This document shows positions 26,407 to 34,173 of a stretch of DNA of 64,000 bases, piece after piece; the stretch's first letter is position 1, and every line of letters starts with the position of its first letter. The DNA lies in the IMG/VR virus record IMGVR_UViG_3300035670_000159, positions 1 through 64,000 of that record. One strand, given 5' to 3'. The notes under the pieces are model-generated. The model saw only the letters and a program-made list of their open reading frames with translations, was not told the origin of the DNA and did no database searches. Origin of the DNA: a virus. Position numbers and translations under genes: made by a program.

Positions 26407-28575
26407 ATGAGTAATAAAGACGTGATTTATGACTTGGAAACCTACAAGAACTGTTTTACATTTACCATTGCTTTAGCTAATAACCCAGCAAAGATTCGTA
26501 CCTTTGAAATCTCTGATCGAAAAGATGACACCGAAGAAATGCTGAAGTGCCTTCGTAATCTCATGAACCAAGGGTGGCGAATGGTTGGATTCAATAACAT
26601 TGGATTTGACTATCCTATTCTTCATGAGATTATGATGAAAGCTGCTAAGGCTAAGTCCGAAGGGGTAAAGCCTAAGTTCACAGCTAAGTGGATTCAGAAG
26701 CTAGCACAAGAACAGATTAACTCCACGAAAGACGGAGGGTTTCCCAAGATTGTTAAAGATGAATTGATTCCGCAAGTTGATTTGTATCTAATTAACCACT
26801 TCAATAACAAGGCTAAGGCTACTTCTCTGAAGATGCTTGAAGTCAATATGCGAAGTGAAAACGTAGAGGATTTACCATTTCCTTTTGATAAGGTTCTGAC
26901 TTCAGATGAAATGGATATCTTGATTAAGTACAACCAACATGACGTGCTTCAGACTATGAAGTTCTATAACTACTGCAAGGACGCTTTACAACTTCGTGAA
27001 GAACTCACGGAGAAGTTCGGGTTTGATTGCACGAATTACAACGATACGAAGATTGGTTCAGAGTTGTTTATTCGTACTCTTGAGAAAGAGCAACCGGGTA
27101 GTTGCTATGAGCAAACTTCTAGAGGTAGGAAGATGCGTCAAACAAAGCGAGATAAGATTGCTTTGAAAGATTGTCTTTTCTCTTATATCAAGTTTAACCG
27201 ACCAGAGTTTCAGGCTGTTCATGAATGGTTTAAGACTCAAGTTATTACTGAAACAAAAGGAGTGTTTACTGATCTTCTTGAGCATAGACTAGGGGATGTA
27301 GCTAAGTATGCAGAAATGCTAACCAAGAAGAAGAAGATTAGTAATCCTGCTGATAATAAAGATAAGAAGTATGTACCTACAGAAAGTCACATTGCTAAGT
27401 TGCGCAAAGAACAGCCTCTTGGGTGGGTGGAAGAGAAAGAACTGAAGTCCCCTAAAGGAGCTAAGTCTTACTATTGGTGCTATCGTATTGCTGAGACTCT
27501 GAATGTGGTCATTAATGGCTTCAGATACGACTATGGTGTTGGAGGAATTCATGGTGCAAAACAAGGTATTGTTCGGACAGAAGGTGACAAAGTGTTACGA
27601 ACATTAGATGTTTCATCTTTTTACCCCAACATGGCAATTAGTAATAATCTACATCCTGCACACCTTGGAACAACGTTTTGTAGAGTGTATAAAAGCCTCT
27701 ACGACGAAAGAAAGAGTCATCCTAAAGGCTCAGGTGCCAACGCTGCTCTGAAGCTTGCTCTGAATGCCTCCTATGGCAATAGTGCGAATGAGTTTAGTCC
27801 ACTTTATGATCCAGCTTACACAATGGCTACTACAGTAGGAGGTCAACTTTCTTTGTGCATGTTGATGGAGAGATTGATTGATGAATGTAGTGCAGAAATT
27901 ATCATGTGTAACACTGATGGTTTTGAGTACTTGATTGATAAATCCTATATTGATAAAGCGGATTCTTTGGTGAAGGAGTGGGAAAATACTACTAAGCTAG
28001 AAATGGAAGGCGATACTTATGCTGTGATGTATATTGCAAACGTGAATAATTATATTTCGATAACTACTTCTGGTAAGGTAAAGACAAAGGGAGCATATGA
28101 AATTCCCGATTACAAAAAGGAAGGTTATAAAAATATCGCTTTTGAAAAACATGGTTGGCATAAAAACCACTCTGCTTTTGTCATTCCTTTAGCTGCAGTG
28201 GAGTTTCTTGTTAACGATAAACCTATTGAATACACAATCATGAATTGGGATAACCCTTACGATTTTTTGTTGAGAACTAAGGTTCCTCGTAGTAGTCGCT
28301 TAGTTTTGTGTTATGATGATGGGAGAGAAGAACTTCAACAAAATATTTGTAGGTACTATCCATCTGTCAATGGTGGAAAGTTAGTAAAAATTATGCCACC
28401 CTTGGAGCAAGGTGGGGAAGAGCGACGATTAGGTATTGACACTGATTGGAATGTGCAAACATGTAACAATATTAAGGATTTTACATGGAATCTAAATTAT
28501 GATTACTACATCAGTGAAGCAAATAAATTAGTTAATGCTATAACAATAGGAGGAGATATAGTTGAAATGGAATGA
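26407..28575 (+). CDS. family B DNA polymerase
   Basis: 722 residues. Proofreading exonuclease: IYDLETYKN (Exo I, residue 9 on), FNNIGFDYPI (Exo II), YNQHDVLQ (Exo III, about 175). Polymerase: LDVSSFYPNMA (motif A, about 400), KLALNASYGN (motif B, about 448), CNTDGFEY (motif C, about 500, first Asp of the usual DTD replaced by Asn), and KTKGAYE. The plan resembles compact phage PolB enzymes. Teamed with a T7-like helicase rather than a DnaB/clamp set. An HNH endonuclease gene overlaps its last 14 bases. Confidence 0.93.
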   Translation: MSNKDVIYDLETYKNCFTFTIALANNPAKIRTFEISDRKDDTEEMLKCLRNLMNQGWRMVGFNNIGFDYPILHEIMMKAAKAKSEGVKPKFTAKWIQKLAQEQINSTKDGGFPKIVKDELIPQVDLYLINHFNNKAKATSLKMLEVNMRSENVEDLPFPFDKVLTSDEMDILIKYNQHDVLQTMKFYNYCKDALQLREELTEKFGFDCTNYNDTKIGSELFIRTLEKEQPGSCYEQTSRGRKMRQTKRDKIALKDCLFSYIKFNRPEFQAVHEWFKTQVITETKGVFTDLLEHRLGDVAKYAEMLTKKKKISNPADNKDKKYVPTESHIAKLRKEQPLGWVEEKELKSPKGAKSYYWCYRIAETLNVVINGFRYDYGVGGIHGAKQGIVRTEGDKVLRTLDVSSFYPNMAISNNLHPAHLGTTFCRVYKSLYDERKSHPKGSGANAALKLALNASYGNSANEFSPLYDPAYTMATTVGGQLSLCMLMERLIDECSAEIIMCNTDGFEYLIDKSYIDKADSLVKEWENTTKLEMEGDTYAVMYIANVNNYISITTSGKVKTKGAYEIPDYKKEGYKNIAFEKHGWHKNHSAFVIPLAAVEFLVNDKPIEYTIMNWDNPYDFLLRTKVPRSSRLVLCYDDGREELQQNICRYYPSVNGGKLVKIMPPLEQGGEERRLGIDTDWNVQTCNNIKDFTWNLNYDYYISEANKLVNAITIGGDIVEME

Positions 28576-29182
28576 GTATTTTTATTACGATGAAACAAGC
28601 CCAACAGGTTTGAGATGGAACAGAGATGTTTTTGCTGGTAGAACAGGTAAAAGTAGAATTGTTGCAAAAGGTGATGTAGCAGGAAACTTGGCGACCTATA
28701 AGAACGGTCTACCAAAATGTGTTGATGTTGGGTTTAACAATAAATTAGTTAAAGCACACAGAATAATCCATGAAATGTTGATTGGAGAAATACCTAAAGG
28801 ATACGTTGTGGATCACCTCGACCAGAATCCTTGGAACAACAAAGTTGAAAATTTATGTGCAAAACCAAAAGCCTTGAACCACAGAAACACTAAAATGATT
28901 GCCACGAATACTTCTGGTGTTACAGGAGTAAGTTGGCAAACAATGAACAAAGGTAAGCACACTTATGCCGTGGGTGAAGTAAGGTTAAATGGGAAAAATT
29001 TCTCCGCACGTTTCGGTGTTCATCACTATGGGCTTCTTCCAGCTTTCAGGTTAGCATTCTTGTGGCGTGAAAACAAAATTAAGGAACTCAATGAAAAATT
29101 TGATGCTGGTTTTACTGAACTTCATGGTGTAGAATGCAAACACACTTCCACTACTTGTACAACTCCGAATTCTCCTGTATAA
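28562..29182 (+). CDS. HNH homing endonuclease with AP2-like domain
   Basis: 206 residues from TTG preceded by AGGAGGAGATATAG. Opening NEYFYYDETSPTGLRWNRD, HNH core KGYVVDHLDQNPWNNKVENL, and the AP2-type DNA-binding part SGVTGVSWQTMNKGKHTYAV. It is a close relative in plan of the gene at 33571. Free-standing, it starts inside the 3' end of the polymerase gene, as expected of a mobile intergenic endonuclease. Confidence 0.9.
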   Translation: MKWNEYFYYDETSPTGLRWNRDVFAGRTGKSRIVAKGDVAGNLATYKNGLPKCVDVGFNNKLVKAHRIIHEMLIGEIPKGYVVDHLDQNPWNNKVENLCAKPKALNHRNTKMIATNTSGVTGVSWQTMNKGKHTYAVGEVRLNGKNFSARFGVHHYGLLPAFRLAFLWRENKIKELNEKFDAGFTELHGVECKHTSTTCTTPNSPV

Positions 29183-29707: not shown

Positions 29708-29956
29708 ATGCACAAGTACCAACAAAAGATTTGGACAAAACAGAGTCCTCGTGATAAGATGATCAGGAACCGTACTTTCGGTGTAACCCCAGGTTGCATC
29801 CCTGATCCAAAGAAAGGTTACAAACGATTTGAACGCTGGCTTAAACGTCCTCGGAAAGCTATTGAGTTGTATTGGCGAGTACGAGGGGTTAAGACTTGGC
29901 GTGATATGCAAGGACGCAACGTGGTTGCGGCTGCTCTGTGTAATGGCTTACATTGA
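29708..29956 (+). CDS. unknown 82-aa basic protein
   Basis: MHKYQQKIWTKQSPRDKMIR, then KRFERWLKRPRKAIELYWRV; strongly basic with several Trp. Possibly nucleic-acid binding. It is the last gene before the tRNA promoter. Confidence 0.55.
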   Translation: MHKYQQKIWTKQSPRDKMIRNRTFGVTPGCIPDPKKGYKRFERWLKRPRKAIELYWRVRGVKTWRDMQGRNVVAAALCNGLH

Positions 29957-29986
29957 AGTAGCAAAAATACAACACAGTAAAAAAGA

Positions 29987-30016
29987 TTGCACAGAGTAAA
30001 GTGCTTGTGCTATAAT
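29987..30016 (+). promoter_or_regulatory. tRNA promoter
   Basis: TTGCAC, 18 bases ending CTTGTGC, TATAAT; the first tRNA base is ten bases beyond the -10 box. Confidence 0.75.
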
Positions 30017-30025
30017 TCAGGTTAT

Positions 30026-30563
30026 GCAACAGTAGCTCAGAGGTGAGAGCAGAGAAGAAGTAGGAGGAGGAATTGAAAAGAAAACAAGCAGAATACCCAT
30101 ACAATGATTTTTGGATTTATAAGGTTTGGCATAAACAAGAAGGAAGATGGCAAGCCAATCTGATTAGAAAATCAAACACAGATGATAGAACAACTATTTC
30201 GTATGCACGATATGTGCTGTCGGTATTTTTAGGTAGAATTTTAGATTCTAAAACCGAGCACGTAGACCACATAGACAATGATAAATCTAACGATTCAATA
30301 GAAAATCTTCAGATTCTTACCCCAGAGCAGAATAAAGAAAAACAAGAGTTATTGTACAGGTCGCTAAACCCAAAATTTATAGTGCTAGACTGCTACGTTT
30401 GTGGTGCAAAGTTTAACTACATAGCTCGAAATTTTAAATTTCACCAGAGTAAAGGAAGGTATAAGTTTTATTGTTCTAAGGATTGTGTCCATGAAAATTT
30501 ACGAAACAAAACACTAGTATAGTATTTCTTTGGCCGTCTGTTCGATTCAGACTTGTTGCACCA
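30026..30563 (+). tRNA. tRNA gene split in the anticodon loop by an HNH gene
   Basis: 5' half 30026-30056 and 3' half 30526-30563 together make a complete tRNA. Acceptor GCAACAG pairs with TTGTTGC plus A and encoded CCA; D-stem GCTC/GAGC; anticodon stem GAGAA/TTCTT; five-base variable loop; T-arm GTCTG-TTCGATT-CAGAC. The anticodon loop is replaced by about 470 bases holding the HNH gene. Bases GTAT just before TTCTT would fit an NGU (Thr) anticodon with A37, weakly. Nearly all the insert is coding, so there is no room for a normal group I intron; the tRNA is probably inactive. Confidence 0.8.
30073..30522 (+). CDS. HNH endonuclease inside a tRNA gene
   Basis: 149 residues, TTG start after TAGGAGGAGGAA, which directly abuts the tRNA 5' half. 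HVDHIDNDKSNDSIENLQIL is the HNH core; a C-terminal CYVCGAKF...FYCSKDC zinc module follows. The stop lies four bases before the 3' half of the tRNA. It is probably expressed from the tRNA promoter. Confidence 0.9.
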   Translation: MKRKQAEYPYNDFWIYKVWHKQEGRWQANLIRKSNTDDRTTISYARYVLSVFLGRILDSKTEHVDHIDNDKSNDSIENLQILTPEQNKEKQELLYRSLNPKFIVLDCYVCGAKFNYIARNFKFHQSKGRYKFYCSKDCVHENLRNKTLV

Positions 30564-30569
30564 AGTTAT

Positions 30570-30655
30570 GCGAGTATGATGGAATAGGTAGTCATACCGG
30601 ATTTAAAATCCGATGCCTTTTAGGCGTGCCAGTTCGAGTCTGGCTACTCGCACCA
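30570..30655 (+). tRNA. tRNA-Leu (UAA)
   Basis: Acceptor GCGAGTA with TACTCGC, discriminator A and encoded CCA; class II variable arm TGCCTTTTAGGCG; anticodon loop TTTAAAA gives UAA. The first base pair of the anticodon stem is a C-A mismatch. It starts six bases after the split tRNA and shares its promoter. Confidence 0.9.
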
Positions 30656-30678: not shown

Positions 30679-31050
30679 ATGACACGATTGATTTCAATCA
30701 AAGCAGTATCTGAACTGCCAGAGGCTTTTAAGGATAAGGTATCCTTTCAAGTCGTAGATAATAACGTAGAGGCTGTAGTGATTACTCTAGGAGAAGAAAC
30801 TCTACGGATTGTCGGCACTGATACCTACAGTAAAAATGTAAAGGTTCTAAAGACTCAACCTAAGAAGGAAGTCACTAAGTATAAGCTCAGTGGTATTGTT
30901 GGAGGTCTTACGATGCAACCTGAGATGTTTGATTCTGAACACGAAGCTGACGAGAAACGTAAGAGTTATGAATACAAGTTTAACTTCGGTGAAGTCGAGT
31001 TGAAGATTGAACCTGTAGTAGAATACGTAGACGAAGAAAAGATTTCCTAA
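30679..31050 (+). CDS. unknown 123-aa protein
   Basis: ATG at 30679 after TGAAAGGAAATAAC. MTRLISIKAVSELPEAFKDK, then LRIVGTDTYSKNVKVLK and KYKLSGIVGGLTMQPEMFDS. Beta-rich and charged; directly precedes the SSB-like gene. Family not recognised. Confidence 0.6.
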   Translation: MTRLISIKAVSELPEAFKDKVSFQVVDNNVEAVVITLGEETLRIVGTDTYSKNVKVLKTQPKKEVTKYKLSGIVGGLTMQPEMFDSEHEADEKRKSYEYKFNFGEVELKIEPVVEYVDEEKIS

Positions 31051-31786: not shown

Positions 31787-31900
31787 GATATAAAGCCCCT
31801 TAAAGGCACTTTCTAGGCCAGGTAATACCCTTGCCTACCTAGATTACTTAAAAGGGCTGGTAGAGCGTTTTAAAGCGTTCTAGGGCCTTCTATCCTCGGT
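31787..31900. repeat. dispersed CTAG/TTTAA intergenic repeat, copy e
   Basis: AAGCCCCTTAAAGGC, CTTTCTAGGCCAGG, TTGCCTACCTAG, TTTTAAAGCGTTCTAGGGCC. Follows the SSB-like gene and fills most of the 225-base gap to the next gene. Confidence 0.5.
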
Positions 31901-32008
31901 TATCATAACTGGACAATGAACGAATCTTCTAAATTCGACTATACTCGTTCAAATCGAGTACCGAGGGCAGAGGGTCTTAGAACTAAAATATTTGAAAGGA
32001 GAAATCAA

Positions 32009-33344: not shown

Positions 33345-33590
33345 GTGGAAAATCAAGAAACACAAAAGCGTACTAAGGTTGAACTGGTTGAGGCTATGCA
33401 AAAACTCTACACAGAAATCAGCTCATTGACAGAACAAATTGATGAGATTAAGGTTGAGGCAAAAGAACGATCAATGCCTTACACCCTTATGGCTAAAATT
33501 GCCAAACTTAGAGCTGAATCCAAAATTGACGATGTTCTAGACAAAAACGAAGAATTTGCAGAGCTAGTGGATGAAATCAGAGGAAATTGA
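33345..33590 (+). CDS. unknown 81-aa coiled-coil protein
   Basis: GTG at 33345 is six bases after AAGGAG. MENQETQKRTKVELVEAMQK and helical heptads to the end. Its 3' end overlaps the following HNH gene by 20 bases. Confidence 0.55.
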   Translation: MENQETQKRTKVELVEAMQKLYTEISSLTEQIDEIKVEAKERSMPYTLMAKIAKLRAESKIDDVLDKNEEFAELVDEIRGN

Positions 33591-34173
33591 TAGATACACA
33601 CAGGTGGATTGGCACGAAATCTTTTACTACGACGAAAGTTCAAAAAGCTGTCTCAGGTGGAAAAAAGATTTCGGCTTCTCTGGAAGAAAATGCAATAACC
33701 GAAAAGACTCTGAGGCAGGGTTCACTAACAATAAAGAACCTTTCCCTGGGAGCCATGACTATTACAAAGTAAATGTCTTGAAGAACAGGTACATGATACA
33801 TAAAATTATTTGGTACATGTTCAGAGAACCTATACCAAAGAAGTTAGTAATTAATCACATAGACTGCAATCAGCTAAACAATAAACTTTCGAACTTGGAG
33901 GTTTGTTCCGAAGCAGATAACCAAAGACGGAGAAAAGAGCATAAACCGGGTAATTGCACTGTTGTGTCAAAAACCGGAATAAACGGAGTCGTTTTTCGGG
34001 ACAATAAGTTTGGTGGAAGATGGATAGCTCATTGGTCTGAAGATGGGAAGGTCAGGACTAAGTCATTCTCTGTATTAAAATACGGTAAAGACGCTGAACA
34101 TATGGCTAAAGAAGCCAGAAGATCAGCTATTCTGAAATTAGTTGAAAAAGGTTATGGCTACATAGTAGAATGA
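33571..34173 (+). CDS. HNH homing endonuclease with AP2-like domain
   Basis: 200 residues. WHEIFYYDESSKSCLRWKKD, HNH core PKKLVINHIDCNQLNNKLSN, then AP2-type TGINGVVFRDNKFGGRWIAH. Same plan as the gene at 28562, so the two descend from one mobile family. It starts inside the preceding gene and ends 12 bases before the exonuclease gene. Confidence 0.9.
   Translation: MKSEEIDRYTQVDWHEIFYYDESSKSCLRWKKDFGFSGRKCNNRKDSEAGFTNNKEPFPGSHDYYKVNVLKNRYMIHKIIWYMFREPIPKKLVINHIDCNQLNNKLSNLEVCSEADNQRRRKEHKPGNCTVVSKTGINGVVFRDNKFGGRWIAHWSEDGKVRTKSFSVLKYGKDAEHMAKEARRSAILKLVEKGYGYIVE

Follow-up and report, generated by a model that had tools for sequence, protein, structure and literature searches.

The locus at positions 30026-30563 of the 64,000-nucleotide viral stretch analysed here (the window) raises the question of whether a tRNA gene whose anticodon loop is filled by an HNH endonuclease gene has been killed by the insertion or is restored by excision of the insert. 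The earlier note had built one tRNA with an encoded CCA from the two flanking segments and placed the HNH gene in its anticodon loop, and its coordinates were confirmed: all four stems form, with 7 of 7 pairs in the acceptor and 5 of 5 in the anticodon stem, and the ORF of 149 amino acids lies between the halves (Table 1). ARAGORN run without introns misses the split tRNA and calls only the tRNA-Leu(TAA) next to it and a tRNA-Arg(TCT) at 31894-31968; with introns allowed, it joins the halves into a single tRNA (30026-30563) whose anticodon loop holds an insert of 460 nt. Intron-mode calls that span the HNH gene were obtained at 3 of 45 loci of the HNH family described below versus 0 of 37 control HNH loci. 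When the 5' half of one tRNA was paired with the 3' half of another, using 187 real tRNAs from the collected loci and allowing G-U, only 4 of 34,714 mismatched pairs reached both 7/7 in the acceptor and 5/5 in the anticodon stem.

Table 1. Features of the interrupted tRNA gene, its insert and its immediate neighbours, in window coordinates.
Feature	Position	Strand	Description and basis
Sigma-70-like promoter	29988-30016	+	TGCACA - 17 - TATAAT, just 5' of the tRNA 5' half; 10/12 consensus, 2.4 such matches expected by chance in the region
tRNA 5' half	30026-30056	+	Acceptor 5' strand, D-arm, anticodon 5' strand; stem pairing, ARAGORN intron mode, chance test; up to A26 also in L132/L133
Acceptor 5' strand	30026-30032		GCAACAG, followed by T8A9
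D-stem	30035-30038/30047-30050		GCTC/GAGC
A26	30051
Anticodon 5' strand	30052-30056		GAGAA
Insert, maximal extent	30057-30525		16 leader bases, ORF and 3 bases
Insert leader	30057-30072	+	Ribosome-binding-like AGGAGGAGG; from sequence
HNH endonuclease gene	30073-30522	+	149 aa, TTG start, behind the ribosome-binding-like AGGAGGAGG; PF13392, phrog_14913
Junction bases	30523-30525	+	TAT; would equal anticodon-loop positions 36-38; sequence, inference
tRNA 3' half	30526-30563	+	Anticodon 3' strand, variable loop, T-arm, acceptor 3' strand, encoded CCA; stem pairing, ARAGORN intron mode, chance test
Anticodon 3' strand	30526-30530		TTCTT
Variable loop	30531-30535		TGGCC
T-arm	30536-30552		GTCTG-TTCGATT-CAGAC
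Acceptor 3' strand	30553-30559		TTGTTGC, followed by A73
CCA	30561-30563
tRNA-Leu(TAA), intact	30570-30655	+	Directly 3' of the split tRNA; a neighbour, no partner of the 5' half

A pattern search recovered two contigs of one related phage (L132 and L133), 94% identical to the window over 29708-30019, in which the same 5' half (GCAACAGTAGCTCAGTTGGTAGAGCA) runs straight into a 74-nt tRNA-like gene ending in CCGTTGC and the HNH gene is absent. This gene scores 34.7 bits against the Rfam tRNA model (gathering score 29) and is degenerate, having neither CCA nor a clean anticodon arm, and ARAGORN misses it. In this uninterrupted gene the 5' half and an NNGTTGC acceptor strand therefore come from one tRNA. 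The uninterrupted homologue that the earlier note had proposed to look for was thus found and indicates that the halves belong together, but its decay leaves the anticodon unreadable. An anticodon reading from any join of the window halves was rejected, only AGU being compatible with U33, an anticodon not known to us from ordinary bacterial tRNAs. Homology between window and relative stops at tRNA position 26 (30051) and restarts near 31039, and the D-loop reads AGAGGTGA in the window versus AGTTGGTA in the relative. An exact 3'-half pattern search of viral contigs and a BLAST search of the joined tRNA against phages returned no match.

The protein encoded by the insert matches PF13392 (HNH_3; E=2e-8, 33.9 bits against a gathering cutoff of 24.8) and belongs to phrog_14913, whose profile aligns with residues 5-147 of its 149 at E=1.3e-29. 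Its HNH_3 core, VDHIDNDKSND, is intact and is followed at the C-terminus by a zinc-finger-like CxxC...CxxxC motif. As the catalytic residues D65, H66, D74 and N78 and the cysteine positions are invariant in an alignment with 16 relatives (A1), the enzyme looks intact, judging by its sequence. An AlphaFold model of the protein alone was poor (pLDDT 39), and a sequence search of the PDB gave zinc-finger-type and ribosomal matches only. The stop codon TAG (30520-30522) falls at would-be tRNA positions 33-35, and the tRNA promoter, of a box type expected by chance, would probably also drive the HNH gene. The window carries two more HNH_3 genes (28562-29182 and 33571-34173), apparently outside the tRNA-linked family; one overlaps the end of a DNA polymerase gene and one has an AP2 domain.

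Relatives of this gene were gathered from phage records and viral contigs, and control HNH loci came from the same search. The ORF has a tRNA no more than 300 bp away at 32 of 38 family loci versus 2 of 37 other-HNH loci, counts for which we give no P value as the loci are partly non-independent. Among the six family loci that have no tRNA in the ARAGORN scan, three (L034, L051, L136) adjoin a rearranged tRNA that ARAGORN misses, and many family loci have the HNH stop codon within the downstream tRNA. Members of phrog_14913 have inserted time and again into phage tRNA genes or next to them, in some cases with a substitute tRNA alongside. At three loci (L067:2852-2927, L064:2877-2960, L062:684-759) protein and tRNA genes overlap: the HNH reading frame runs into a complete downstream tRNA, taking its C-terminal codons from the 5' half and its stop codon from the anticodon loop or variable arm. 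In Vibrio phage 1.026.O a family HNH gene is directly preceded by a tRNA, annotated tRNA-OTHER, whose anticodon loop is enlarged (L038:1362-1441), and a phage-borne permuted tmRNA (L001:4615-4880; RF04321, 64.6 bits) adjoins a tRNA-Met and an HNH gene of the family.

At least four more family loci contain a split tRNA. In Aeromonas phage P19 (L028), GGTCCTG...CCGACTC is followed by the HNH gene and then by ATAATCGG...CAGGATCACCA, the insert lying exactly between C34 and A35 of CTCATAA, and in the related phage G2 the CCGACTCATAATCGG arm is uninterrupted. At L044 the HNH gene and a complete tRNA-Met(CAT) separate the halves, CTCATAA being still visible in the 3' half; at L045 the HNH gene and a complete tRNA-Ile(TAT) lie between a GGACCCT half and a T-arm with AGGGTCC; and at L061 a tRNA-Leu and the HNH gene separate the halves. 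The acceptor halves of these last three pair 7/7. We call a split firm only at 7/7, which unrelated loci reach in 0.5%, since a relaxed half-tRNA scan matches 13.5% of cross pairs by chance; L038, L037 and L050 are weaker candidates. One half only is retained in TC6, PA11, L039, L062 and others.

Based on these data we consider it highly probable that a free-standing HNH homing endonuclease of phrog_14913, targeting tRNA genes, entered and killed this tRNA gene, which is one of the two outcomes that the earlier note had entertained. The enzyme would probably cut the tRNA gene at or near the anticodon loop in phages that do not carry the HNH gene, and repair of the break from the donor would copy the gene in. 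The incoming gene would bring little beyond its ribosome-binding site and ORF, could use the tRNA promoter and would acquire its stop codon from the junction, leaving a disrupted tRNA that contains no intron and whose halves are decaying; phages would tolerate the loss because they can do without the tRNA or, for some relatives, because a substitute tRNA lies beside the HNH gene. The site is occupied in one phage and empty in a relative in two cases, the window versus L132/L133 and TC6 versus O4 (described below), as befits a free-standing homing endonuclease. We hold the tRNA to be dead as the insert belongs to no intron family, no workable anticodon can be formed, halves are decayed or lost at other loci and inserts elsewhere contain second tRNA genes; the linkage of the family to tRNA genes points the same way. 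Speaking against this reading, the two stems, T-loop and CCA of the window are intact, as in a gene in use or after a recent insertion, the tRNA of the empty-site relative is itself degenerate, and six of the 38 family loci gave no tRNA in the scan. Given the intact stems, the insertion is most likely recent.

Two other readings were considered. One is that remnants of two different tRNAs flank an ordinary HNH gene by chance, and remnants are indeed numerous in phage tRNA clusters; yet complementarity in both stems arises by chance in about 1 of 9,000 cases, the uninterrupted gene of the relative joins the same 5' half to a 3' acceptor strand in the same register, and the split pattern recurs across the family, so that we regard coincidence as extremely improbable. 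The other, also raised by the earlier note, is that a functional tRNA is regained when a novel mini-intron or an enzyme-assisted processing route excises the HNH segment. The insertion lies at the entry point of group I introns in tRNA genes, the preservation of both window stems, the T-loop and CCA would suit such a route, and so would the P19 anticodon, broken exactly between positions 34 and 35. However, no group I, group II or other Rfam intron was found in the window (at the gathering threshold or at E up to 5) or in 16 related loci. A group I intron would have a ribozyme core (P3-P8), a preceding U and a terminal G, a combination that this insert does not present: it consists of the ORF and about 19 other bases, 16 of them ahead of the start codon and 3 following the stop, much as the earlier note had estimated. 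An archaeal-type or other protein-spliced tRNA intron would need a bulge-helix-bulge where the exons meet and a splicing endonuclease from the host, which is presumably a bacterium. No join of the halves gives a normal loop, as those giving U33 yield AGU with U38 in every case, and the altered D-loop of the window is a further point against splicing. Elsewhere in the family the T-loop has decayed (to ATCATGC in P19) or a single half is kept, and the inserts of L044, L045 and L061 contain a whole second tRNA gene, unlike introns. Splicing of the window insert is therefore unlikely on sequence grounds, and we give the restoration of a functional tRNA by any such route very little credence.

A further possibility refines the killing of the tRNA by an endonuclease rather than opposing it. 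Among Paundecimvirus phages, O4 carries its tRNA-Arg(TCT), GTTCCGT...ACGGAAC, intact and without an HNH gene at the site, and TC6, PA11 and Ty have the O4-type 5' half followed by the HNH gene and then by another tRNA-Arg(TCT), whose segments come in a rearranged order; in PP21 the HNH gene is mostly lost, and IME180 keeps the new tRNA alone, with compensating T-stem changes. At L069 a new tRNA has the same acceptor, GGGTGGT, and a different D-arm. Replacement by a tRNA of the same anticodon is seen in Paundecimvirus and at L044 (CAT for CAT) and not in the window. The Paundecimvirus, L044 and L069 patterns suggest a natural cleave-and-rescue arrangement, in which the HNH gene would travel with a recoded, uncuttable tRNA of the same decoding specificity, and invasion would both kill and replace the native tRNA; the complete tRNA-Ile in the L045 insert is also consistent with it. 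Against it, same-anticodon replacement was read at few loci, the inserts of P19, L038 and the window contain no substitute, tRNA clusters put tRNAs close together regardless, the cut resistance of the substitutes is putative, and rearranged tRNAs are found also without an HNH gene. We judge this extension conceivable though doubtful, and we propose only tentatively that phrog_14913 HNH genes are cleave-and-rescue drives that occur naturally in phage tRNA clusters; they would cut the anticodon arm and carry cut-escaping substitutes, some rearranged or pseudoknotted, that keep decoding. The tRNA-Leu(TAA) downstream of the split gene was considered as a rescue tRNA and rejected, being a class II tRNA with a different acceptor.

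Several family HNH genes adjoin a tRNA-Arg(TCT)-like gene with a pseudoknot, which hundreds of phage records have without an HNH gene (349 records match at E<=1). Examples, mostly unannotated, are L034:1389-1473 and genes near the match in L126-L131 and L138-L150. The acceptor and anticodon stems are intact and the end is NCCA, while the D5' strand (CCNNC) finds its partner in the loop of the variable arm, 3' of the anticodon arm; an AAGG after the partner strand may replace the D-loop GG. Checked sequence by sequence, the pairing covaries, the five D5/D3 combinations (CCTGC/GCAGG, CCAGC/GCTGG, CCCAC/GTGGG, CCGAC/GTTGG, CCAAC/GTTGG) all being perfectly paired, and this pseudoknotted phage tRNA is possibly a new class. 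A second rearranged subtype with anticodon CAT or TAT (TATCNC-CTC-arm-GAAAGNGTAATTGG) also adjoins family HNH genes (L003:4902-4980, L058 about 2370-2450, L136 about 1395-1475, L002:450-530).

These results name a mobile nuclease family that specialises in tRNA genes and document its insertion inside them. Nucleases of this kind could help to explain the fast turnover and the many remnants in phage tRNA clusters and, if the substitute tRNAs truly rescue, they would be nature's version of the engineered cleave-and-rescue gene drives, an idea open to test with Pseudomonas phages in culture (O4 versus PA11 or TC6).

A search of the open-access literature yielded no account of HNH genes that are specific to tRNA genes and sit inside them. 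Group I introns occupy the anticodon loops of bacterial tRNAs, some with endonuclease ORFs; the window insert shares their insertion region and, with some of them, a linked nuclease gene, but no ribozyme was found in it and its non-coding part is far too short. In Vibrio phage pVa5 a tRNA-Stop interrupted by about 2.5 kb was called in ARAGORN intron mode and considered by its authors to be possibly an artefact (PMC5746245); it resembles the window as a phage tRNA gene reportedly interrupted by coding DNA, and differs in that no tRNA-specific endonuclease was named there (PMC5746245). That phage is absent among the tblastn matches listed for the window HNH. The mobA-mobE genes of T4-like phages are likewise of the HNH fold class and free-standing, neither intron nor intein, but they lie in or between protein genes, their cleavage sites are usually distant and they have no known tRNA specificity (PMC2988022). 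SegB of T4 is a free-standing GIY-YIG homing endonuclease encoded between tRNA-Arg and tRNA-Ile genes that has an intergenic target and favours inheritance of the tRNA region (PMC2988022). SegB and the putative homing endonuclease of the window are both free-standing phage enzymes; they differ in nuclease fold, and whereas SegB lies between tRNA genes, the HNH gene of the window lies inside one.
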